Shown here: in pieces, positions 4,591 through 17,329 of the stretch | Numbering within the stretch: position 1 is the stretch's first letter | Layout of the letters: each line of letters starts with the position of its first letter | Origin: Armatimonadota bacterium | GTDB lineage: Bacteria > Armatimonadota > HRBIN16 | Length of the DNA: 64,000 bases | Assembly (NCBI GenBank): GCA_026003195.1 | Contig: BPGU01000001.1 | Span: forward strand, 667,398-731,397 | Direction: 5' to 3' | Notes under the pieces: model-generated | Seen by the model: only the letters and a program-made list of their open reading frames with translations | Told to the model about the DNA's origin: nothing | The model's database searches: none | Translations under genes and position numbers: made by a program

Positions 4591-4619
4591 TTGACAACAC
4601 AGAAACAGTATGGTATAGT
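4591..4619 (+). promoter_or_regulatory. Strong sigma-70-type promoter (TTGACA-N17-TATAGT)
   Basis: A perfect -35 TTGACA (4591-4596) is followed, exactly 17 bases later, by TATAGT (4614-4619) preceded by TGG, an extended -10. It points towards the echA-like gene 195 bases downstream. The distance leaves room for a long 5' leader or a separate small transcript. Confidence 0.75.
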
Positions 4620-4759: not shown

Positions 4760-4768
4760 TGATATAAT
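4760..4768 (+). promoter_or_regulatory. Extended -10 promoter of the echA-echB pair
   Basis: TGA-TATAAT is a consensus extended -10 element 45 bases before the echA ATG. The best -35 candidate (TTGCTG at 4735-4740) is 22 bases away, too far, so this would depend on the extended -10. Confidence 0.6.
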
Positions 4769-4813: not shown

Positions 4814-6730
4814 ATGGAATTAGCGGGTTGGTTCACGGGTAGTCTGATTCTTCTGCCTGTGTGTGCAGGCGTGCTCTGTTACATGATTTCCTCACCGCGT
4901 GTGCGCAATACGCTTATTCTCCTTGCCTCTCTTCTACTGGTTGCCATCACTTTGCTCGCCTTCGTTCTCGGCACGCTGGAGTACAGCCCCGGTTCCCCTG
5001 TGTGGCATGTTCTGGTGAGCCTCGCTGATGTGTTGCTGCTTGGCGTCTTTTTCCTGTACGGTTGGAAAAGGAAGAGCCTGCTCATCATCGGGTTGGTGCT
5101 CTTGCAGGCGGCATCGCTGGCTTATCTGGAACTAGGGCTAAAAGCACAGGCTGAGGTGCATCCGCTTTTTGTGACCGACTGGCTCACCATTACGATGTTG
5201 TTGATTGTGGGCGTCATCGGTTCGGTGGTGGTGGTATACAGTATTCCCTACATGGCGGAACACGAAGAGCATCTGCATCTGGCACGGAGCAGACAGTCGC
5301 GCTTTTTCCTGCTTTTACTCGTGTTCCTGGGCGCGATGAACGGTGTGCTCCTGGCGAACAGCCTCTACTGGCTTTTCTTCTTCTGGGAGGTGACCACGCT
5401 CTGCTGCTTCCTGTTGATTGCCCATGACGATACGGAGCAGGCGTGGGAGAGCGCATATCGGGCGTTGTGGATGAACCTGATAGGTGGAGCCAGTCTGTCG
5501 CTGGCGATGGTGCTGATTTACTCCCAGACACATACGCTGTCCATCCGCGAAATCGTGGAGGGGCATTTTGGTTCGGCGGGGATAGTGCTTCCGTTCGCTT
5601 TCTTGTGCCTGGCGGGGTTTACCAAGTCGGCGCAGATGCCCTTCCAGGGCTGGCTTTTGGGGGCGATGGTGGCACCGACGCCGGTTTCCGCACTGCTCCA
5701 CTCGAGCACGATGGTCAAGGCGGGAGTGTATCTGGTGATTCGCTTTGCACCCGCCTTTCGGGATACCTATCCCAGTTATCTGGTGGCGCTGATTGGCGGT
5801 TTTACCTTCGTCGCGGCGGCGATGCTGGCTATCAGTCAGCAGAATGCCAAGCGTGTGCTGGCGTACTCCACCGTCTCGAATCTCGGCTTGATTATCGCCT
5901 GCGCAGGATTAAACACCTCCATGGCACTGTCGGCGGCGGTGATGCTCATCATCTTCCATGCCATATCGAAGGGCTTGCTGTTCATGGCGATCGGAGTGAT
6001 CGAGAGCGGCATCCGAAGCCGGGACATCGAGCAGATGGAAGGACTTTTCGCCAAAATGCCGTTGACAACGGTGGTAACGGTTATCGGCATTGCCTCGATG
6101 CTGTTGCCTCCCTTTGGGGTGCTGATTGCCAAGTGGGCAGCCATCGAGTCGTCCGTGAAGCTGCCGGTGGCTACGGTGATGTTCGTTATCGGCAGTACCT
6201 TCACCGTGATGTTCTGGACGAAGTGGGTGGGGAAACTACTGAGCGTTTCTCCCGGCGATCCTCCTCTGCGCATGGAGCGACTGCATCCCTTGTATGTCGG
6301 CACGCTCCTTTTCCTGACCGTGGGCGCGATGGTGTTTAGTCTGATGGTGGCTGAAGTGTTGAACCGACTGGTGGTGCCCGCAGTAGCGCGTTACTACGGC
6401 AGCGCAGGGTTCTCCTCCGATTTGCCTGTAGCGACCGAATCCGGCTGGTTCCCGGTTTTGCTGCTCTTTGCGGTGCTGGTACTGGCGGTGGTACTGCCTT
6501 TATTGTTTATCCGGGTGCGCCGCAGTGAGGTAGCGCCGCCTTACCTGTGTGGCGAACAGGTGGAAGAGGTGCCGGATGTGCGCTTTCGCTCGGCAGGCGA
6601 CGACATAGAAGAGGTACTGATAGGGGGGCACTACTTCGAGCATTTCTTTGGCGAGTCCCGCCATAGTCGCTGGATCCATGCAGTTTCTGTGGTATTACTC
6701 CTCGCAATGTTTGGGGTGGCTGTGCTTTGA
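4814..6730 (+). CDS. echA: EchA/NuoL-like proton-conducting membrane subunit (638 aa)
   Basis: The protein is an antiporter-like membrane subunit of the complex I / group 4 hydrogenase superfamily and carries ions across the cytoplasmic membrane. About 14-16 hydrophobic segments are visible. The conserved central region (residues about 250-330) includes GFTKSAQMPFQGWLLGAM and APTPVSALLHSSTMVKAGVYL, with the lysine and histidine of the proton channel. At 638 residues, paired with an EchB-type partner, it fits EchA (or HyfB) better than canonical NuoL. The hydrophilic tail (about 570-610) resembles the C-terminus of EchA-type subunits. It ends in a TTGA overlap with the next gene. No catalytic hydrogenase subunit lies in the window. 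The start at 4814 has a GGAG-like site just upstream. Confidence 0.8.
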   Translation: MELAGWFTGSLILLPVCAGVLCYMISSPRVRNTLILLASLLLVAITLLAFVLGTLEYSPGSPVWHVLVSLADVLLLGVFFLYGWKRKSLLIIGLVLLQAASLAYLELGLKAQAEVHPLFVTDWLTITMLLIVGVIGSVVVVYSIPYMAEHEEHLHLARSRQSRFFLLLLVFLGAMNGVLLANSLYWLFFFWEVTTLCCFLLIAHDDTEQAWESAYRALWMNLIGGASLSLAMVLIYSQTHTLSIREIVEGHFGSAGIVLPFAFLCLAGFTKSAQMPFQGWLLGAMVAPTPVSALLHSSTMVKAGVYLVIRFAPAFRDTYPSYLVALIGGFTFVAAAMLAISQQNAKRVLAYSTVSNLGLIIACAGLNTSMALSAAVMLIIFHAISKGLLFMAIGVIESGIRSRDIEQMEGLFAKMPLTTVVTVIGIASMLLPPFGVLIAKWAAIESSVKLPVATVMFVIGSTFTVMFWTKWVGKLLSVSPGDPPLRMERLHPLYVGTLLFLTVGAMVFSLMVAEVLNRLVVPAVARYYGSAGFSSDLPVATESGWFPVLLLFAVLVLAVVLPLLFIRVRRSEVAPPYLCGEQVEEVPDVRFRSAGDDIEEVLIGGHYFEHFFGESRHSRWIHAVSVVLLLAMFGVAVL

Positions 6731-7590
6731 GCGACTGGTACACACCTCTGATTATCCTGGCAACCCTCCTGATTGCCCCACTGGTAGGGGGCTTGTTGAT
6801 GGGAATAGATCGCAAACTGAGTGCACGTATGCAGGGCAGGGCGGGACCTCCTGTCGCTCAACCGTTCTATGACCTCATCAAGCTGTTTGCCAAGGATGCG
6901 CTGGTCTCTACAAAGATGCAACTGGTGAGCGTTTATCTGTATCTCGCCTCCGTGGTGCTCAGCACGGTGATGCTGGTGCTGGCACAGGACTTGCTGGTAC
7001 TGTTGTTTGTGCTGGCGCTGGGCAGTGTGTCGTTGATACTGGGGGCATTCAGCGTGCGCTCGCCCTACAGTCAGCTGGGGGCATATCGTGAACTGCTCTT
7101 GCTCTTAAGTTACGAGCCTCTGCTGGCGCTGTTTGTGGTCGGAGTGTATCTGGCGACAGGTAGTTTCATGGTGCGTGACATCTTCAAGATGGAGCAACCG
7201 TTGCTGCTGTCCCTGCCCCTGTTCGCGGTGACCCAGATACTGGTGCTGGCGATGAAGATGAACAAGTCGCCGTTTGATATCTCCGCTTCCCACCATGCGC
7301 ATCAGGAGGTTGTGCGTGGAATCCTCACCGAGTTTTCGGGTCCCTATCTGGGCATTATCGAGTTGACGCACTGGTACGAGCTGGTGTTATTGCTGGGCAT
7401 GACGGCGCTGCTCTGGGCGAATAACCTGTGGGGAGGAGCAGCTCTGGCGATAGGCAGTTATTTGGTGGTGATAGGCATAGACAGCATCACCGCCCGCATG
7501 ACATGGCGCTGGACACTGCGCGTGGGGTGGGGGATCGGCATCCCTCTGGCGGTAACGAACCTGATGATTCTGTACCTGCAAAGATTGTAA
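6727..7590 (+). CDS. echB: EchB/HycD/NuoH-like membrane subunit (287 aa)
   Basis: This is the homologue of complex I NuoH, the membrane subunit that anchors the peripheral arm. It starts at a TTG overlapping the upstream stop (TTGA). Residues about 30-55 carry RMQGRAGPPVAQPFYDLIKLFAK, typical of EchB/HycD. Residues about 180-205 carry SPFDISASHHAHQEVVRGILTEFSGP, the hydrogenase-type version of the quinone-loop motif; true NuoH has a GESELV-type loop instead. Around eight membrane segments are visible. It is translationally coupled to the EchA-like gene and converges on nuoN with only 12 bases between stops. Confidence 0.85.
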   Translation: MSDWYTPLIILATLLIAPLVGGLLMGIDRKLSARMQGRAGPPVAQPFYDLIKLFAKDALVSTKMQLVSVYLYLASVVLSTVMLVLAQDLLVLLFVLALGSVSLILGAFSVRSPYSQLGAYRELLLLLSYEPLLALFVVGVYLATGSFMVRDIFKMEQPLLLSLPLFAVTQILVLAMKMNKSPFDISASHHAHQEVVRGILTEFSGPYLGIIELTHWYELVLLLGMTALLWANNLWGGAALAIGSYLVVIGIDSITARMTWRWTLRVGWGIGIPLAVTNLMILYLQRL

Positions 7591-7602
7591 CAAGGATGTA
7601 CT

Positions 7603-9132
7603 TTATCTGCTTTTTTCGCTCTCAGAACCGGCTACCGTCACATTTTGCCCCTGTAAGTGTTGCGTCGCCGTGCGCGGCAGGTCCGGTGGAAGGGTGAGGA
7701 AAGTGGAGGCATAGCTCCACTCCAGCCATGGACGCGGGTACAGACCGATTATCGCAGTGGCGACCACGCAGATGGCAATGGCGGTGCTGAGAGAGCGGCG
7801 GAAGCGGAAGGGGCTCTCTTCCTCAGGCGCGTCGATGAACATCCGCTTGGCGACCATCAGATAATAGTACAAAGCGACTACGCTGGTGATCGCGCCGACC
7901 AGCACCAGCACATAGTGACCTTCTGAGGCGCCTGCCCAGAACAGGTACAGCTTGCCCCAGAACCCCGCCAGTGGGGGGATGCCGCCCAGAGAGAGCAAGA
8001 ATATCAACATGGAAAACGCCAGAGCAGGGGATCGGTAGCGCAAGCCACGCAGGGCATCTATCTCTTCGGAACCCACGTTACCCTGAAGTGCCTGTGCGAC
8101 AAAGAACGCCCCGGCATTGGCGAAGGCGTATAGCAGCAGGTAGAAAAGGGTGGCTCCCAAACCCAGTTCCACGCCTGAGACCACTGCGACCAGCAGATAC
8201 CCAGCCTGCGCGACACTGGAGTAGGCGAGTAGCCGCTTCAGGCTGCTTTGTGCCAGTGCCACCAGGTTGCCCAGTACCATGCTCAGTGCAGACAGAGCCA
8301 CCAGCGCCATCACCCAGATGTCTTCCGCGCCATGCAGTCCGATAATCAGCAGGCGCAAGAGGGCAGCAAACCCTGCCGTTTTGGAGGCAGTAGAAAGGAA
8401 CGCGCTAATCGGCGTGGGGGCACCCTGATATACGTCCGCCACCCACAGGTGGAATGGCGCGGCGGTGATCTTGAACGCCAGCCCTCCAATGACCAGTACC
8501 ATGCCGACTATTCCCAGCAATCCCAGCTGGCTTTCGCCTGCACCGGGGAGCAAGCCTGCAGGCAGCTGCGAGTACACCGTTGTACCGTAGGCGCCGTACA
8601 CCAGGCTGACTCCATACAGCAGTATCGCCGACGAGGTGGCGCTCACAATGAGCAGCTTCAGCGCAGACTCGCCACTGCGCGGATCGGTCTTGCGATGTCC
8701 GGCAAGGGCGAACAGGCTCACTGTACCGATTTCCAGCGTAATATACAGCGTCAATAGACTCCCCGCGGAAGAAATCAGGGTGAATCCCAGCGCACTGAGC
8801 AGGAGCAGGGCATAATAGCTGCCTCGATCACCCGTCTTTTGCCACTCCTCACAGCATACCGAGGACAAACAGACCAAAGCTCCGATAGACATGATCAGCG
8901 TGGTCAACATGCGGGCGTAGCCATCCCAAACATACAGTCCTTGCCACAATTCGCCATCCTGCGCCGCCCAGCTGGACAACACCGCCCCCACAGCGAACAC
9001 GCTCACCGCCGTCCATCCACCAGCGTTCCAGCGTCGTGGCGTGATACCTTCCGCCAACAACACCAGCAGCGTGCCCGTCAGTAGCCAGAGATGCGGCAAG
9101 GTCAGACTGAAGATGTGTGTCCAGTTCGCCAT
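7603..9132 (-). CDS. nuoN: NADH-quinone oxidoreductase subunit N (509 aa)
   Basis: Membrane proton-pumping subunit of respiratory complex I. It begins at an ATG with AAGGG-type ribosome site just after the nuoM stop. Around 14 hydrophobic segments are visible. The family core (residues about 215-270) contains FKITAAPFHLWVADVYQGAPTPISAFLSTASKTAGFA, in which the lysines of the proton channel lie. The length is normal for NuoN. It is last in the nuoL-nuoM-nuoN order. The other nuo genes (A-K) are not in this window. Confidence 0.93.
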   Translation of the reverse strand: MANWTHIFSLTLPHLWLLTGTLLVLLAEGITPRRWNAGGWTAVSVFAVGAVLSSWAAQDGELWQGLYVWDGYARMLTTLIMSIGALVCLSSVCCEEWQKTGDRGSYYALLLLSALGFTLISSAGSLLTLYITLEIGTVSLFALAGHRKTDPRSGESALKLLIVSATSSAILLYGVSLVYGAYGTTVYSQLPAGLLPGAGESQLGLLGIVGMVLVIGGLAFKITAAPFHLWVADVYQGAPTPISAFLSTASKTAGFAALLRLLIIGLHGAEDIWVMALVALSALSMVLGNLVALAQSSLKRLLAYSSVAQAGYLLVAVVSGVELGLGATLFYLLLYAFANAGAFFVAQALQGNVGSEEIDALRGLRYRSPALAFSMLIFLLSLGGIPPLAGFWGKLYLFWAGASEGHYVLVLVGAITSVVALYYYLMVAKRMFIDAPEEESPFRFRRSLSTAIAICVVATAIIGLYPRPWLEWSYASTFLTLPPDLPRTATQHLQGQNVTVAGSESEKSR

Positions 9133-9138
9133 CGCCCT

Positions 9139-10629
9139 TTACACCTTCCCCAGCAGTTTCAGGTAGTCGTGCACACCCACGTTCAGGAAGTCGGTGAGCA
9201 GTCGAGGCATTACACCAGTAATGACAAGGATAGCCCCCAGCACTACCAGAGCCACCCATTCGGTGGTGCGGGCGTCGGGCAGGTCATCATAGCCATCCGG
9301 GCGCCTGCCGAAAAACACCTTCTGCACCACGCGCAGCACGTAGGTAGCGGTAATCACGATGCCTGCCACGCCAATATAGGTCATCCAGGGATAGCTTTGC
9401 CACACACCCCAGAAGGTGAGGAACTCTGCCACAAACCCACTGGTGCCGGGCAAGCCGAAGGAGGAGAGACCACCTACCACAAAGGCGACCGCGATACCCG
9501 GCATCTTCTCGGCAAAACCGCCCATCTTCAGTATGTCGCGCGTGTGCGACTTCTCATATACCAGCCCGACCAGTGCGAAGAACAGACCCGTCATGATGCC
9601 GTGCGCGAACATCTGCAGGGTGGAACCAGTGAGGCTGACAGCGTTCATGCCTGCCAACCCCAGCATGACGACGCCCATGTGGCTGACACTGGAGTAGGCG
9701 ATGACGTACTTCAGGTCGGTCTGTCCCATCGCGCTGAACGCACCGTAGATGATGTTCACCACGGCGATAGTGCCCATCAAGGGTGCCCAGTACTGTGCGC
9801 CTTCGGGCAACAGGCTCATGCCCACGCGCAGTACGCCGAACGCTCCCAGTTTCATCAGCACGCCCGCGTGCAGCATACTCACCGCCGTCGGTGCGCTGGC
9901 GTGCCCGTCTGGTGACCAGGTATGCAGCGGCCAGATGCCCGCCAGAATGCCAAAGCCCACGTAGAAGAGAAGGAAAAGCACGCGCTGCTGTTCAGGGGTG
10001 AACTTTGCCGTCTTCAGCAGCTCAGGGATATCGAAGGTCTGTGTAGGGCTCAGGAAGTACACTGCCAGCATCCCCACCAGAATAAACGCGCTCCCCAACA
10101 ACAGGTACAGGGTCAACTTCATCGCGGAGTACTCTTTTCTTCCCGTGCCCCAGATACCGATGAGCAGGTACATTGGCAGCACCGCAATCTCGTAGAACAG
10201 GAAGAAGAAGAACAGGTCTAGCGACACAAATACCCCGAAGACCCCCGTGACCAGAAAGAGCAGCAACGCGAGAAAGTCTTTAGTGCGGTACTCTATCGTC
10301 CACGAAGCGAATACTCCGGTGAAGATGATGAATGCGGTCAACAGCACCAGCGTGATGCTGACACCATCTACCCCCAGGTGATAGCTGACGCCCGTTAGCG
10401 GTACCCATTCCATGCGCTCTTCAAACTGGATACCGCCCTTTGCAAAGTCGAAACGGAAGCACAGCCACAGCGAGATCAGCAGAGTGATGCTGGTTGCCAC
10501 GGCAGCCATGACCCGGATGACGGTCTTGCGCTCTGGAGGTACCAGCAAGATGAGCAGACAGGTGACAAACGGCACCAGTATCGTTAACGACAGCGCGTGT
10601 TGTGCAATCCAGTTCATCCCCGTCATCAC
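9139..10629 (-). CDS. nuoM: NADH-quinone oxidoreductase subunit M (496 aa)
   Basis: Second antiporter-like subunit of complex I. Residues about 90-130 show the SYHLGVDGVSITLVLLTAF signature of NuoM. Residues about 215-260 (FGILAGIWPLHTWSPDGHASAPTAVSMLHAGVLMKLGAFG) hold the conserved histidine and lysine of the proton path. The longest start is a GTG at 10629 followed at once by ATG; another ATG at 10617 is preceded by GACGGGG. The start is therefore uncertain by up to four codons. The gene follows nuoL after 4 bases. Confidence 0.93.
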   Translation of the reverse strand: MMTGMNWIAQHALSLTILVPFVTCLLILLVPPERKTVIRVMAAVATSITLLISLWLCFRFDFAKGGIQFEERMEWVPLTGVSYHLGVDGVSITLVLLTAFIIFTGVFASWTIEYRTKDFLALLLFLVTGVFGVFVSLDLFFFFLFYEIAVLPMYLLIGIWGTGRKEYSAMKLTLYLLLGSAFILVGMLAVYFLSPTQTFDIPELLKTAKFTPEQQRVLFLLFYVGFGILAGIWPLHTWSPDGHASAPTAVSMLHAGVLMKLGAFGVLRVGMSLLPEGAQYWAPLMGTIAVVNIIYGAFSAMGQTDLKYVIAYSSVSHMGVVMLGLAGMNAVSLTGSTLQMFAHGIMTGLFFALVGLVYEKSHTRDILKMGGFAEKMPGIAVAFVVGGLSSFGLPGTSGFVAEFLTFWGVWQSYPWMTYIGVAGIVITATYVLRVVQKVFFGRRPDGYDDLPDARTTEWVALVVLGAILVITGVMPRLLTDFLNVGVHDYLKLLGKV

Positions 10630-10633
10630 CCCT

Positions 10634-12490
10634 TTACTGGAAGCGGCTTAGCACGGCAGCCACCGTTGCCAGAATACTCAGTACCAGCACCAGCACATAA
10701 AACTGCGCCTGCCCGTTGGTCAGCCAGCGCAGGCGTGCACCGGTAGCTCCTGTGAACCAGGCAACGGCATTCACGATGCCGTCCACCACGTACCTGTCAA
10801 ACCAGGCTATCATGCGGGCTGTGAGCAGCACTGCCCTCGCTACGATGAAGGTGAAGAAATCGTCCACAAACCACTTGCGTTCCAGCAGGGCATACACCGG
10901 CGTGGGCAGTCGTTCCTGCAGTGGTTCTTGCCCCTGTGCTGCGCGGTACAACCGGTAGCCAGCGAAGATGCCGACGAGCGCTATCAACGTTGCGGAGGCA
11001 GCCAGCGGTAGGGAAAAGCTGGCATGACCGCTCGCAGGATTTTCCAGCGCGGCGCGCACCGCAGATGCTCCCAGACCGCCCACCGCCGCCGCGACCGCCA
11101 GCAACAGCAGAGGCACGCTCATCACAGGAGGGGATTCGTGGGCGTGTCGGGCGTGCTCGGTGCGAGGTTCGCCGAGGAAGGTCATCACCCACAGGCGCGT
11201 CATGTAGAAGGCAGTGAGCAGAGCGGTGAGTATCCCCGCTGTCAGGGCAAGAGGATGTTTGCCCGTCCAGGCTGCCAGCAGGATTTCATCCTTGCTCCAG
11301 AAGCCACTGAGCGGGAAGATGCCAGCCAGCGCCAGCGCACCCACCAGTGCGGTGATTGCGGTGAGACGCATCTTGCCCCACAGTCCGCCCATCTCGCGCA
11401 TATCCTGCGTGTGGGTGGCATGGATCACGCTGCCGGCGGTGAGGAAAAGCAGCGACTTGAAATAGGCGTGTGTGCCCAGATGGAACATCGCTGCAACGCG
11501 GTCACCCAAACCCAACGCCATCATCATATAGCCCAGCTGGCTGATGGTGGAGTAGGCGAGCACCCGCTTGATATCGAACTGCGCCAGAGCAATGGTTGCT
11601 GCCATGAACGCCGTAAACCCACCGATCACCGTCACTACCTGCATGGCGACCGGCGCCGCCTCGAACAGGAAGAACATCCTCGCTACCAGAAACACCCCTG
11701 CGGCGACCATCGTGGCGGCATGAATCAGGGCGGAGACAGGAGTAGGACCTTCCATCGCATCGGGCAACCAGATGTGCAGGGGGAACTGCGCGCTTTTACC
11801 CACCGCACCGCAGAAGAACAAAAGCGCTACCGCCGTCGCGAAGGTGGTTAGCGAGCCGAACAGCGGAGGAAGATTGCCGTTAGCCACCTGCGCCTCGATC
11901 TGGTCTATCTGGAAAGTGCCCGCTGCATAAGAGAGCAGGATGAGACCGAGCAGGAAGCCCACATCCCCGAAGCGGGTCACCACAAAAGCCTTTTTCGCGG
12001 CGTTAGCGGCTTCGGGTTTGCGGTACCAAAAGCCGATAAGCAGATAGGAGCATAGCCCCACCAGTTCCCAGCTCATGTACAGCAGGAGCAGATTGTCGGC
12101 GATGACCAGACCGAGCATGGCAGCGGTGAACAACGCCATCACAGCAAAATAGCGGGCAAATCCCGAATCGCCAGCCATGTAGCCCATCGAATACACCTGT
12201 ACCGCAAGGCTGACGGTGCTGACGATGACCATCATCAGTGCAGACAGCCCATCCAGTCTTGCCCCGACGGAAATGCTCCAGTCGCCCACTATCAGCCACT
12301 TTGCCTGCACATGGTGGCCCTGCGCGTAGTGGCTCCATGCAGAAAGGGCAAGTATGGTGCTCCAGGCAACAGCGAGGATGGTGGGCAAGGCGGATACCCA
12401 GTGGGTGTTTCTGCGTGGCACAAACCACAGTGCAGTCAAGATGGATGCAGCAACACACCACAGAGGCGCGGTCCAGAATTGTTCTGCCAT
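10634..12490 (-). CDS. nuoL: NADH-quinone oxidoreductase subunit L (618 aa)
   Basis: Largest antiporter-like subunit of complex I, with the long lateral helix at the C-terminus. Residues about 60-100 carry GARLDGLSALMMVIVSTVSLAVQVYSMGYM. Residues about 220-270 carry GKSAQFPLHIWLPDAMEGPTPVSALIHAATMVAAGVFLVAR, diagnostic of NuoL. The protein ends with a hydrophobic anchor helix. It is first in the nuoL-M-N operon; the ribosome site (AGGTAG) is weak. No promoter stands out in the 253 bases upstream. Confidence 0.93.
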   Translation of the reverse strand: MAEQFWTAPLWCVAASILTALWFVPRRNTHWVSALPTILAVAWSTILALSAWSHYAQGHHVQAKWLIVGDWSISVGARLDGLSALMMVIVSTVSLAVQVYSMGYMAGDSGFARYFAVMALFTAAMLGLVIADNLLLLYMSWELVGLCSYLLIGFWYRKPEAANAAKKAFVVTRFGDVGFLLGLILLSYAAGTFQIDQIEAQVANGNLPPLFGSLTTFATAVALLFFCGAVGKSAQFPLHIWLPDAMEGPTPVSALIHAATMVAAGVFLVARMFFLFEAAPVAMQVVTVIGGFTAFMAATIALAQFDIKRVLAYSTISQLGYMMMALGLGDRVAAMFHLGTHAYFKSLLFLTAGSVIHATHTQDMREMGGLWGKMRLTAITALVGALALAGIFPLSGFWSKDEILLAAWTGKHPLALTAGILTALLTAFYMTRLWVMTFLGEPRTEHARHAHESPPVMSVPLLLLAVAAAVGGLGASAVRAALENPASGHASFSLPLAASATLIALVGIFAGYRLYRAAQGQEPLQERLPTPVYALLERKWFVDDFFTFIVARAVLLTARMIAWFDRYVVDGIVNAVAWFTGATGARLRWLTNGQAQFYVLVLVLSILATVAAVLSRFQ

Positions 12491-12743: not shown

Positions 12744-13781
12744 TCACTGCCACCCCCATGTCCTCGCTTCATCCAGACGCTTCCGTACCTGTTCGCGGGT
12801 CGCGACGCCAGTGGTGCCAATCTGCTGGATGGTGATAGACGCCACCAGCTGCCCTACCTGAGCGGCTTCTACCAGACTCGCCCCGCTGCAGAGCGCGCTG
12901 ACCGTGCCTGCGGAGGTGCTGTCGCCTGCGCCCACGATGTCTATCTCGCCCGTCACCGGTATAGCGGGCACGTGAGTGACGTTCTCACCGTCTACCACCA
13001 GCACACCCTGCTCGCCCACCGTCAGGAAAACAGGCTTGCCGGTGCGCTTCGAAAGCCTCACGCCCATTTCGCGTGCTTCGTCGAGAGTGCAGGTTCCTTC
13101 CCAATCGGGCAGGAAGACGCGCATCGCCTCGCGCTGGTTGGGTTTGATCAGGAGGTGACGATATTCTCCGATGCGGGCGCGTGAATCGGCAAAGAAAACC
13201 TTCTGCGGATACTCTCTCGCCAGCTGGCAAATCTCTTCGCGCACACGGTCGGTGACCACCCCGCAGTTGCGCTCTTCCACCTGGTCCGCCACAATGACGC
13301 CGTCCACCTCAGGCACGAAATCGCGCAACAGGGTGATGATGCGCTCTTCCCACTCTGGTTCCAGAGGGGTGCGGTTTTTGATGTCCAGACGGTTTATCTC
13401 GTGTACGCGACCGTCTACTTCTCGCAGCATCGGCTTGGTGTAGGTGGGGGTGAACCGCCCGGGATGTTGCAGCACAGCGTCCACGTTCACGCCTCGTGCG
13501 CGCAGTTCGTGTAGCAGTTCGTAGCCGTGACCGTCCTGCCCGATGAGGGTCAGGGCGTAGGTTTGCACTTCCAGCGCGCGCAGGTTGTTGGCGACGGTGC
13601 CTCCCGCGCCAGGGCTGTTGCGTATCTCCACCACCTGATACGCTTCCAGACCTGTTTCGAGCGAGGTTTCGCTGAGCGTGCGGTCTATCATCAGGTAATG
13701 GTCGAGGAAGAAGTCCCCCACAATCAGCACCTTCTGTTCGGGGAAACGGCTGAGTATCTGCTGCAATCTTTCTCCGGTCAT
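12744..13781 (-). CDS. PfkB-family kinase, HldE/RfaE kinase-like (345 aa)
   Basis: A ribokinase-fold sugar kinase. The N-terminal part (KVLIVGDFFLDHYL, residues about 17-30) and the substrate loop SPGAGGTVANNLRALEVQ (about 56-73) match the heptose-7-phosphate kinase group of PfkB enzymes. The catalytic motif is DIVGAGDSTSAG (about 283-294), with the general base Asp of GAGD present. KPNQREA near 215 is another RfaE-type feature. It has a strong GGAGGAAC site, and its ATG overlaps the stop of the gene upstream (ATGA). The true substrate is unknown; heptose-7-phosphate or another sugar phosphate is likely. No nucleotidyltransferase domain is fused. Confidence 0.8.
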   Translation of the reverse strand: MTGERLQQILSRFPEQKVLIVGDFFLDHYLMIDRTLSETSLETGLEAYQVVEIRNSPGAGGTVANNLRALEVQTYALTLIGQDGHGYELLHELRARGVNVDAVLQHPGRFTPTYTKPMLREVDGRVHEINRLDIKNRTPLEPEWEERIITLLRDFVPEVDGVIVADQVEERNCGVVTDRVREEICQLAREYPQKVFFADSRARIGEYRHLLIKPNQREAMRVFLPDWEGTCTLDEAREMGVRLSKRTGKPVFLTVGEQGVLVVDGENVTHVPAIPVTGEIDIVGAGDSTSAGTVSALCSGASLVEAAQVGQLVASITIQQIGTTGVATREQVRKRLDEARTWGWQ

Positions 13782-14791
13782 GTCTGTTCCTCCAGATAGC
13801 GCAGCACGCGGTGATAGAGATTGGGAACAGTGATGCGGTGGTCACCGCAGAAGTAAAAGCTCTCGCCGCCGTCGGCGACAGTGCGCACCAGAATGGTTTT
13901 CCACGGGCGGTAGTAGTAGCGCGGGTCGGATTTGGGTGCCTCGTGGTGCAGGTCGCCTTCCAGTGGCAGGAGGTCAAAGACGGCGGTGGTAAAGTGCTTG
14001 ATTTCGCGTCCCTCCTGATGCGCCACATTGCGCGCCATCGACAACGCCTTCAGGTACACCTCGGGGGCCATCACCGCCGAGCCGAACGCCATCATCACTC
14101 CGCCTTCCAGCTGCGAGACGGTGTGCGCGAAGACCAGAAAGTCGGTGTACGATGCTGCGCCCAGCGCGGCGCCGTCGCAGTTGGGATGTTCATGGATGAT
14201 GTCGTAGCCGATGCCGATATGCACAGTCACCGGCACGCGCAGGCGGTAGCCCGCCGCCATCACGCTGATGTCTTTGTGCGGAAAGTCGCCTTCCGCAATC
14301 ATGCGCCCGATGGCTTCACCGAAGCCGATGCCCTCCGCGTATGCCTGTTTGGCTGCTTCGTTCAGGCGTCCTGTCTCCTGCCACAAGCCGAACTGCCCAA
14401 TGCGGATATAGTGCGCCACGCTTTCGGTGGTCTTGCCGATGAGGGCGAGCTCGAAATCGTGGATGGGTCCGGCTCCGTTCATGGCGATATGGGTGAGGAC
14501 GCCGCGCTCCATCAGGTCAATCAGGAATCGGCTGACACCTGCGCGGATCACGTGTGCACCCATCATGAGAATAACGGGGCGACCCTGACGGTGGGCAGCA
14601 GCTACCCGTTGCGCCAGCACATCGAATCCGGGGGCATCGTAGGGCGGCACCGGGTCGTGCAGCTGGTAGAAAGAGTCGAGCGACAGGTCATGCACCCGCT
14701 CCGAGAGCGGCAGCAGTTTCAGTCGGCTCCGGTCGAAGAGTGGGTAGGGCACAGGTTGCTGCCTCCATCCGCTGGTTTGACGCTTCATCAT
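13778..14791 (-). CDS. Deoxyhypusine-synthase-like Rossmann protein (337 aa)
   Basis: The frame is open to 14944, but the first 51 residues look like random translation, and the ATG at 14791 (MMKRQTSGWRQ) begins a consistent protein, so I use that start. Residues about 75-120 (GRPVILMMGAHVIRAGVSRFLIDLMERGVLTHIAMNGAGPIHDFE) form an NAD-type Rossmann core like that of deoxyhypusine synthase. Further recognisable parts are VTVHIGIGYDIIHEHPNCDGAALG and LEGGVMMAFGSAVMAPEVYLKAL. Bacterial members are of unknown function. Its ATGA overlap with a HldE-like kinase ties it to sugar-phosphate metabolism rather than hypusine formation; that is inference. Confidence 0.7.
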   Translation of the reverse strand: MMKRQTSGWRQQPVPYPLFDRSRLKLLPLSERVHDLSLDSFYQLHDPVPPYDAPGFDVLAQRVAAAHRQGRPVILMMGAHVIRAGVSRFLIDLMERGVLTHIAMNGAGPIHDFELALIGKTTESVAHYIRIGQFGLWQETGRLNEAAKQAYAEGIGFGEAIGRMIAEGDFPHKDISVMAAGYRLRVPVTVHIGIGYDIIHEHPNCDGAALGAASYTDFLVFAHTVSQLEGGVMMAFGSAVMAPEVYLKALSMARNVAHQEGREIKHFTTAVFDLLPLEGDLHHEAPKSDPRYYYRPWKTILVRTVADGGESFYFCGDHRITVPNLYHRVLRYLEEQT

Positions 14792-14895
14792 ACAGCGCGA
14801 GGGGTAGATTCGGAACGGAACGGGTGTCTTCCTGCTGAGGCATATCGGGAGGACAGCCCACGCAATGGGCGAACTGGTCGAGGGAGGGATTGTCG

Positions 14896-16380
14896 ATGGC
14901 TTCCTGTACGGTACAGATACCAGACGAGTGCATCCATTCCGCATTTCGTCGCCTGAACACGTTTCTGCATCGGTACAAACTCACCGCGCAGAGGCGTGAT
15001 ACATGGGCACAGGGCGTATGTGGCTATGGTATCGACGAACAGTGCCCTACCGCACAAGACACGCGCGATAACCGCTGGTTGGTGTGGGCGGCGCGGTATT
15101 GCGAACCCGATGAACAGTTCTTGCAAGATGCGATCCCCAGTATCTTGCGTGCTGCTTTCAACGAGGAGGGCATCGAGGTACACGAGCTGGCTGCGCCGTA
15201 CGCCGATGATTACCATCACTACTACATCTGGTGGCTGCTGCAGGTGGCTCTGGGCTACCTGTATACGGGGGACACGACTCTGGATAGCGGGCACCTGCGA
15301 CGCATTGTTCAAAGGTTGTATCAACGCTTTGACAACGAGGGTACTGGCATCACCCATACGGACATGTATCATTTCGTCACTTCCATCGGTGAGCCAGCAA
15401 ACACCGACCCGGGCAAGGCTTACAGCTTCTATCACGGTTGTAACCTCGCGTTCACTCTGCGGCAGCTGGCGCATCTGGCAGACGCGCGCGGAGATACGGC
15501 ATCCCTGCGCTACTTTGAGGAGAGGCAAGAACGACTGCGGGAGAACCTGATGCGCTTTCGCAGTGCAGATGGCTTCTACTACGCATTGCGCGAGGTGGGC
15601 ACTGGGCGGTATCGCTACCGGGTGACGGGCGAGGAGGCGCTGTGCCTGATGAGCGATAATGTATTTGCGCCGATAGCGTTTGGCGTCTTCTCGCGCGAGG
15701 AGATGCTGCCGAGCGTGCAGTATCTGCTGGAGCATGTCGGGCACTGTTTCCCCGTGCCCTACGCCTATCCACCATATCGTGGCGTGTGGACGAACGGCTG
15801 GTGGATACCGCGCAGCTGGCAGGAGCCGTTTGCGCATTTCTGCCTCGCGATGCGGGCACTGGAGATGCCATCACTGGTGGCCCGGGCTGTCACGCAGATG
15901 GCGCGGCGTTTCGAACAGGACGGTGAGGTCTGGGAACATTACGACGCCGACACGGGCGAGGCGCAGAACTACTGGGTGCCGCCGCGCCGAGGTTACTCCA
16001 CCACCGCAGCCGGCTTCAACATCGCGGTCATCGAGACGCTTTTTGGCATCCGCCCCGTGCAGCCGGGGTTCGCTTCGGTATCCGTTCGTCCTGCCTTCCC
16101 GGAGGAGTGGCGTTTTGCACACATAGACACTACCGTGAACGGACAGAAGATATGCCTTACTATGAAGAAAGAGGAACAAAAGGTGATGTATGACTTTGAA
16201 GGTACCTCCGCGCGGATAGACGAGTTCTGTATGGTGTTGCCCTCTTCCTGGGTGGGGAAGAGGCTAAGAGCAAACGTAGGGGGGGTGTTTCGCCCGCTGA
16301 AGGGAGAAGCGCGAACCTGCTTCGAGCGCACAACGCCTCTGCCATCCGATGTCGCGCGCGTGGAAGTGACCCTTTTTTGA
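14896..16380 (+). CDS. Six-hairpin glycoside hydrolase-like protein (about 494 aa)
   Basis: Two starts are possible: TTG at 14890 or ATG at 14896. The latter has GAGGGAGG at good spacing, so it is chosen. The protein looks like an alpha/alpha six-hairpin glycosidase such as those of GH78/GH116-like groups: aromatic-rich helices (APYADDYHHYYIWWLLQVALGYLY), an acidic motif THTDMYHFV, then GVWTNGWWIPRSWQEPFAHFCLAMRALE. A C-terminal beta-sandwich starts around residue 385 (GIRPVQPGFASVSVRPAFPEEW). No signal peptide is evident, so it may act in the cytoplasm. Substrate is not assignable. It is divergent from the deoxyhypusine-synthase-like gene, with about 100 bases between starts. Confidence 0.7.
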   Translation: MASCTVQIPDECIHSAFRRLNTFLHRYKLTAQRRDTWAQGVCGYGIDEQCPTAQDTRDNRWLVWAARYCEPDEQFLQDAIPSILRAAFNEEGIEVHELAAPYADDYHHYYIWWLLQVALGYLYTGDTTLDSGHLRRIVQRLYQRFDNEGTGITHTDMYHFVTSIGEPANTDPGKAYSFYHGCNLAFTLRQLAHLADARGDTASLRYFEERQERLRENLMRFRSADGFYYALREVGTGRYRYRVTGEEALCLMSDNVFAPIAFGVFSREEMLPSVQYLLEHVGHCFPVPYAYPPYRGVWTNGWWIPRSWQEPFAHFCLAMRALEMPSLVARAVTQMARRFEQDGEVWEHYDADTGEAQNYWVPPRRGYSTTAAGFNIAVIETLFGIRPVQPGFASVSVRPAFPEEWRFAHIDTTVNGQKICLTMKKEEQKVMYDFEGTSARIDEFCMVLPSSWVGKRLRANVGGVFRPLKGEARTCFERTTPLPSDVARVEVTLF

Positions 16381-16492
16381 CAAATGTAGCGCTGAGGGCG
16401 TGAACCGTGCAGAACCGTCTGGAACAGGAGCTTCGTCGGTATATAGACCTGCTGGCACGCTACTACCAGCCAGACCTGCTTGCACGCCTGAA

Positions 16493-17329
16493 TCACCTCT
16501 CCCACTCCCCAAACAGATACGCTACCAGTTTGTCCTGCTCGCGAAATTCGGGGACGATGATGTCCGCGCCTGCGCCGATCAGGCGGTTGCGTTTCCATTC
16601 GTTGACGCCCTCTTTGCGTACCTCGTCGGAGGCGACGCCTATCGCGATGCCACCTACCGCTTTGGTGTTCTCTATTTCCACGAAGCCGTCTCCAAAGCCG
16701 GCGAACTCCTTGCCGGAAAGGGAATGGGTCTGGATGATGTGCTGGATGACCATTGCTTTGGAGAAGCGTTTGTAGTCGTCGATCGCGCCGTAGATGCCTT
16801 CAAAGTATCCGTCTATCTTCAGTGCGGCGGCTTCGTCGAGCACGTACACCTCGTCGGTGCCGCTGGCGAGGTACATACGCACACCGCGTCGCTTCAGGTT
16901 TTCCAGCAGGTCGCGCGAGCCGGGAACCAGCATGTCGTCGGGGTGGATGGTGCCGTTCTTCAAGCCTTCCACGCGGTGCTTGATGCGCTCCCACAAGCGT
17001 GCGAGATATTCCCACTTGTACTCCAGCGGGTCGCGCGGTGTGCCTCCTCGTTTCTGAATCTCCTCGCAGAGCTGGATCATCTGGTAGATGGTCTGTTTGC
17101 CCGTGAGGCGGTCTACGTACTCGGTGACGATTCGGGTCAACTCTTCGGGTGATTCGTCCGTTGGGGTTTCGCGCTGCAGCACCTCCACCATCATGGGTAT
17201 CATCACCTGCTGCCAGCCCTCGCGGATAAGGGAGAGCGTGCCGTCGAAGTCAAACAGGGCGAAGCGGATGTGTCCGCGCGGAATGTCGTCACGGATAATT
17301 TCAATATGTGTTCCCGGCAAGAAGCGCAT
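16493..17329 (-). CDS. HAD-superfamily phosphatase (278 aa)
   Basis: The ATG at 17329 is preceded by GAGGGG at seven bases; an earlier in-frame ATG at 17344 overlaps that site. The catalytic motif I is FALFDFDGTLSLIREGW (about residues 23-40), with both Asp residues. Motif II falls in YLASGTDE, and motif IV/III in FAGFGDGFVEIENTKAVGG. A large cap lies between. It probably removes phosphate from a small sugar-phosphate or nucleotide substrate. Together with the HldE-type kinase nearby it could be part of one carbohydrate route, although the glycosidase gene lies between them on the other strand. Confidence 0.82.
   Translation of the reverse strand: MRFLPGTHIEIIRDDIPRGHIRFALFDFDGTLSLIREGWQQVMIPMMVEVLQRETPTDESPEELTRIVTEYVDRLTGKQTIYQMIQLCEEIQKRGGTPRDPLEYKWEYLARLWERIKHRVEGLKNGTIHPDDMLVPGSRDLLENLKRRGVRMYLASGTDEVYVLDEAAALKIDGYFEGIYGAIDDYKRFSKAMVIQHIIQTHSLSGKEFAGFGDGFVEIENTKAVGGIAIGVASDEVRKEGVNEWKRNRLIGAGADIIVPEFREQDKLVAYLFGEWER

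Follow-up and report, generated by a model that had tools for sequence, protein, structure and literature searches.

A two-gene echA-echB unit in an Armatimonadota bacterium is probably the membrane half of an Ech-type hydrogenase with a split operon

In the window, which is the whole 64,000-nucleotide stretch of Armatimonadota DNA analyzed here, an EchA-like and an EchB-like gene form a two-gene unit that faces a nuoLMN operon, and genes for EchC to EchF are missing downstream of echB. This layout raises the question of which partner, if any, the two membrane proteins have. The echA gene (4814..6730, forward strand) starts with ATG and encodes a 638-aa antiporter-like (NuoL/MrpA-type) membrane subunit of Ech hydrogenase. 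The echB gene (6727..7590, forward strand) starts with TTG, overlaps the echA ORF by 4 bases, and encodes a 287-aa NuoH/MbhM-like membrane anchor subunit. EchA showed the Pfam domains PF00361 (E=6e-56) and PF00662 (Proton_antipo_M/N), and EchB showed PF00146 (NADHdh, E=2e-41). The top PDB match of EchA was MrpA (7qru_A), and that of EchB was subunit M of the archaeal membrane-bound hydrogenase of Pyrococcus (6cfw_M, E=1.6e-22), which ranked above formate hydrogenlyase subunit 4 and complex I ND1. Among curated NCBI models, Mrp-A, hydrogenase-4 D, and NuoL scored highest for EchA, all far under their cut-offs (for NuoL, 229 against 556 bits and 219 against 407.5 bits), and EchB fell under every NuoH cut-off by a wide margin (78 against 305 bits at best). 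EchB carries the motif HHAHQEVVRG, whose first six residues are HHAHQE or HHGHQE in each of the eight relatives shown, and its residues H190, H192, Q193, and E194 were near-invariant among 29 relatives. In EchA, residues E192, K271, K302, K386, and K440 align with MrpA residues and were invariant among 22 relatives; the ion-translocation residues expected of an antiporter-like Ech subunit are kept. These results bear out the two-gene unit and the motif described in the sequence-only reading.

Upstream of the pair, an extended -10 promoter-like element (TGATATAAT, 4760..4768, forward strand) lies 45 bases before the echA ATG. The sequence TGTGATATAATG was identical in four genus members, and its flanks have diverged. 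A general-purpose promoter scan missed this conserved -10 and gave a single hit, at 4591-4619, within an inserted prophage. This prophage of about 20.3 kb (C1, about 651,740-672,073; L032 from about 3741, with its right end at about 4676 of the window) carries terminase, portal-like, major head protein, and amidase genes. Its empty site is found in genus member G003, and TATC is present at both junctions. An IS110-family (DEDD) transposase of 410 aa with an HTH extension is encoded at the left end (L032:3821-5053) and was the only integration gene recognized among the ten prophage proteins scanned; if it is true that an IS110-type recombinase acts as the phage integrase, this would merit separate study. 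The right end of the prophage lies about 140 bases upstream of echA, which could suggest that the pair is a functionless, decaying remnant. However, both genes are full length, with 78 to 93% identity across the genus and all invariant residues retained, and the promoter-like element is still in place on the echA side of the insertion, so that decay is a highly improbable explanation.

It had been proposed from the sequence that the pair might couple with a peripheral arm encoded elsewhere. The genome was searched family by family with domain profiles. The search with PF00346 (49-kDa/NuoD) found two complex I copies, a weak match in another hydrogenase, and a 359-aa protein on contig C3, and the NiFe-hydrogenase family search found the same C3 gene, echE. 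This gene belongs to an intact echC-echD-echE-echF set (C3:871,784-874,091), which runs in a single direction, divergent from pntAB, and shows the expected domains; the products EchC, EchE, and EchF are 147, 359, and 119 aa long, respectively. In EchE, which aligns full-length with the catalytic subunit of 6cfw, both NiFe motifs (RICGICSATH and DPCISCTER) are intact, and C65, C68, C353, and C356 were invariant among 30 relatives. The protein terminates right after the second motif, so no removable C-terminal peptide is apparent. The 4Fe-4S ligands of EchC (C22, C25, C89, and C119) and the eight cysteines of EchF (C43 to C84, two 4Fe-4S sites) were invariant among about 30 relatives. The gene for HypF, a general maturation protein of NiFe hydrogenases, lies at C2:271,735. 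A promoter-like element of echC (TGGTATATT) is conserved in three genomes; each half thus stands behind its own such element, and these elements presumably function as promoters.

All six Ech subunits are encoded in this genome, with A and B in the window and C to F on C3, and the label of an orphan pair was therefore wrong. No A or B genes were found near the C3 cluster. The genome contains three PF00146 genes (two NuoH and EchB) and seven PF00361 genes (six Nuo and EchA); every Ech gene type is single-copy, and the other genes of these two families fall in two complex I sets. No complete ech or hyf operon carrying A and B genes of its own was found elsewhere in the genome; such an operon would have made the pair redundant. 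The single-copy counts indicate that echAB and echCDEF are each other's only available partners. In addition, three further NiFe hydrogenase large subunits are encoded in the genome (L031:9161-10507, L030:4655-11093, and L029:11314-12957), and by-eye inspection of gene context makes them look like NAD(P)-linked, Hdr-associated, and bidirectional types.

Next, 291 genomes of the phylum were scored for EchB and EchE. Both proteins occurred together in 19 genomes and neither in 270; one genome had EchB only, and one had only a distant EchE-like protein (Fisher p=1e-27, uncorrected for shared ancestry). The EchB-only genome (G007), which has EchAB, has a completeness of 77%, and pntA, which usually neighbors echC, is missing from it as well. 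The lone EchE-like protein (G259:C100:34362-35435, within L137; 48% identity), from an Armatimonadota genome in which no close EchB occurs, may be a member of another group 4 hydrogenase. This distribution bears on the proposal that EchAB works by itself as a minimal ion pump, or as an antiporter with an unknown partner. As such a pump might, the pair does stand in a locus of its own that resembles a transcription unit and has the conserved -10 element. However, EchAB presence tracks echE across the phylum, the pair being missing wherever echE was missing apart from G007, and the cognate CDEF unit would be left without any other partner in the genome. Furthermore, EchB-type proteins are docking subunits in solved relatives. 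We consider it most improbable that the pair acts as a pump by itself.

The gene order in relatives showed the same partnership. Among 24 EchB loci in public genomes, the 20 outside the genus (from Chthonomonadales, Firmicutes, and sulfate reducers) formed an A-B-C-D-E-F row within contig limits, in which echA opens the row and echB stands directly before echC. Likewise, each of the 14 genomes from outside the genus with both genes had echB and echE on a single contig, at a distance of 0.89 to 0.97 kb. This single echABCDEF operon, which is usual but not essential for an Ech-type enzyme, was not seen within the genus, where AB and CDEF are split and echB and echE were on different contigs in all five members having both. 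All the genomes are probably MAGs, and the estimated contamination of the window's genome is 4.8%, but the neighbors of the C3 locus were the same in other genus members. In G000, G002, and G003, both halves lie inside contigs and are flanked by conserved non-ech neighbors, and their separation is thus not due to contig breaks. The AB neighbors in the genus are a PfkB-kinase gene or nuoLMN; those of CDEF are an aldo/keto-reductase-like gene on one side and pntAB on the other. Altogether, the two halves are intact, single-copy, and co-occurring, and they form one operon in relatives, in agreement with the proposed coupling to a peripheral arm encoded elsewhere.

We also considered the facing nuoN-nuoM-nuoL genes (7603-12490, reverse strand) as the partner. 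They scored above the curated thresholds of the models TIGR01770, TIGR01972, and PRK06590, and their convergence on the pair with a 12-base gap between echB and nuoN (7591-7602) was as first described. At about 490-504 kb, C1 carries a full nuo operon that includes the NADH module, and the window genes most likely belong to a second complex I (Nuo2) without NuoE, NuoF, and NuoG, whose other genes are on C2 (about 1,109,350-1,114,160, L027). The genes of this second complex are also split over different contigs in G006. The nuoD2 gene (L027:10254-11397, C2) is frameshifted near residue 260 here and intact in G006; either an error of assembly or the onset of decay could account for the frameshift. 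EchAB could in principle join Nuo2, as an extra pump module or in place of some of the subunits of the NuoABCDHIJK + LMN complex. The frameshifted nuoD2 would fit this proposal, and so would the adjacency of echAB and nuoLMN, which holds in two genomes despite a rearranged order: in the window the order is PfkB, nuoLMN, and echAB, the last two being convergent, whereas in G002 it is PfkB, echAB, and nuoLMN, the last two being divergent. However, G003 (98% complete) has EchAB and EchE without nuoD2 and LMN2, and G001, G006, and G009 have nuoD2 and LMN2 without Ech. On this presence and absence we reject the neighboring nuoLMN as the partner, and the earlier suggestion that the pair joins the complex I-like machinery is not supported. 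Moreover, Nuo2 has its own NuoH, and echAB always precedes echC outside the genus. We therefore regard the joining of Nuo2 as very unlikely. The PfkB-side locus (window 12744-16493; L105, L107, and L113) contains echAB, nuoLMN, or both, with the order varying among genus members; only echAB is beside PfkB in G003 and only nuoLMN in G006. This locus resembles a hot spot for modules of membrane pumps, and the adjacency of echAB and nuoLMN looks like a shared landing place rather than a sign of a shared complex.

The history of the split was examined with concatenated trees. The genus grouped with family f16 both in the A+B tree (SH-aLRT 89) and in the C+E+F tree (SH-aLRT 99), and EchB and EchE distances were correlated (r=0.86; none of 2000 permutations was as high). 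An EchB-only FastTree had pointed to a donor of AB other than that of CDEF, which was not upheld by the concatenated trees under a site-heterogeneous model; in two single-gene trees, the genus was not resolved. Because the trees of both halves place the genus with f16, the simplest history is one ancestral echABCDEF operon that was severed between echB and echC. An empty CDEF site beside pntA was not found in Ech-negative relatives, in which the gene order differs or the contig ends.

Altogether, the echAB membrane arm and the echCDEF peripheral arm on C3 very probably form one group 4 Ech-type NiFe hydrogenase, the six genes of which stood in one ancestral operon until a cut separated B from C. 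The best reading of these sequences is a standard six-subunit, ferredoxin-linked, ion-pumping enzyme with a split operon. The Ech-family biochemistry behind the mechanism proposed here has been reviewed (PMC5861303). Electrons from reduced ferredoxin would pass through EchF, with its two 4Fe-4S clusters, and EchC, with one, and reach the NiFe site in EchE for the reversible conversion of protons to H2. The released energy would drive the export of H+ or Na+ through EchB and the charged residues E192, K271, K302, K386, and K440 of EchA. Gamma domains of the 2-oxoacid:ferredoxin oxidoreductase type were found in nine of ten genus members, Ech-positive and Ech-negative alike, and proteins of this type are possible ferredoxin reducers.

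Compared with the EchABCDEF complexes of Methanosarcina barkeri, Desulfovibrio gigas, and others (NiFe group 4e), the subunits, domains, and metal-site motifs match, and we assign the enzyme at the group 4 level; relatives keep the echABCDEF order, whereas the window's genus has two distant units. The subunits of Mbh of Pyrococcus (group 4d, PDB 6cfw) are the best solved relatives of EchB and EchE, but neither ech locus contains genes for an extra Mrp-type antiporter module, and EchA is the sole antiporter-like subunit. The folds PF00361, PF00146, PF01058, PF00329, and PF00346 are held in common with complex I (NuoA-N); in contrast to complex I, EchB falls under the NuoH cut-offs and EchE retains its NiFe cysteines. 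Known ech clusters differ in gene order and added subunits, as in Thermoanaerobacter kivui (PMC4320612), whose Ech1 and Ech2 are likewise bacterial Ech-type complexes. These are encoded in single clusters with an extra HycB-like subunit or a second EchA, whereas in the genome studied here six genes without such additions are divided between two units. No Ech complex was reported for 77 marine Armatimonadota MAGs (PMC10290634). A short search of part of the literature found no paper pairing "Armatimonadetes" with "Ech hydrogenase" and no published description of an AB/CDEF split of ech.

We expect the enzyme itself to be standard, a known type with an uncommon gene layout. It is very unlikely that the unlinking is itself functional, with a separately controlled membrane module that would also serve a second peripheral arm such as the complex I without an NADH module; if true, this would mean interchangeable arms on one ion pump. 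The split operon nevertheless places an Ech-type hydrogenase in a class-level lineage of Armatimonadota and offers a clean natural case in which the operon of a complex I-type enzyme was cut exactly at the border between its membrane and peripheral modules. When EchA and EchB look like an orphan pair, they can still make up the membrane half of an ordinary hydrogenase with its catalytic half encoded elsewhere, and hydrogenase censuses based on operons may misread genomes in which ech is split.
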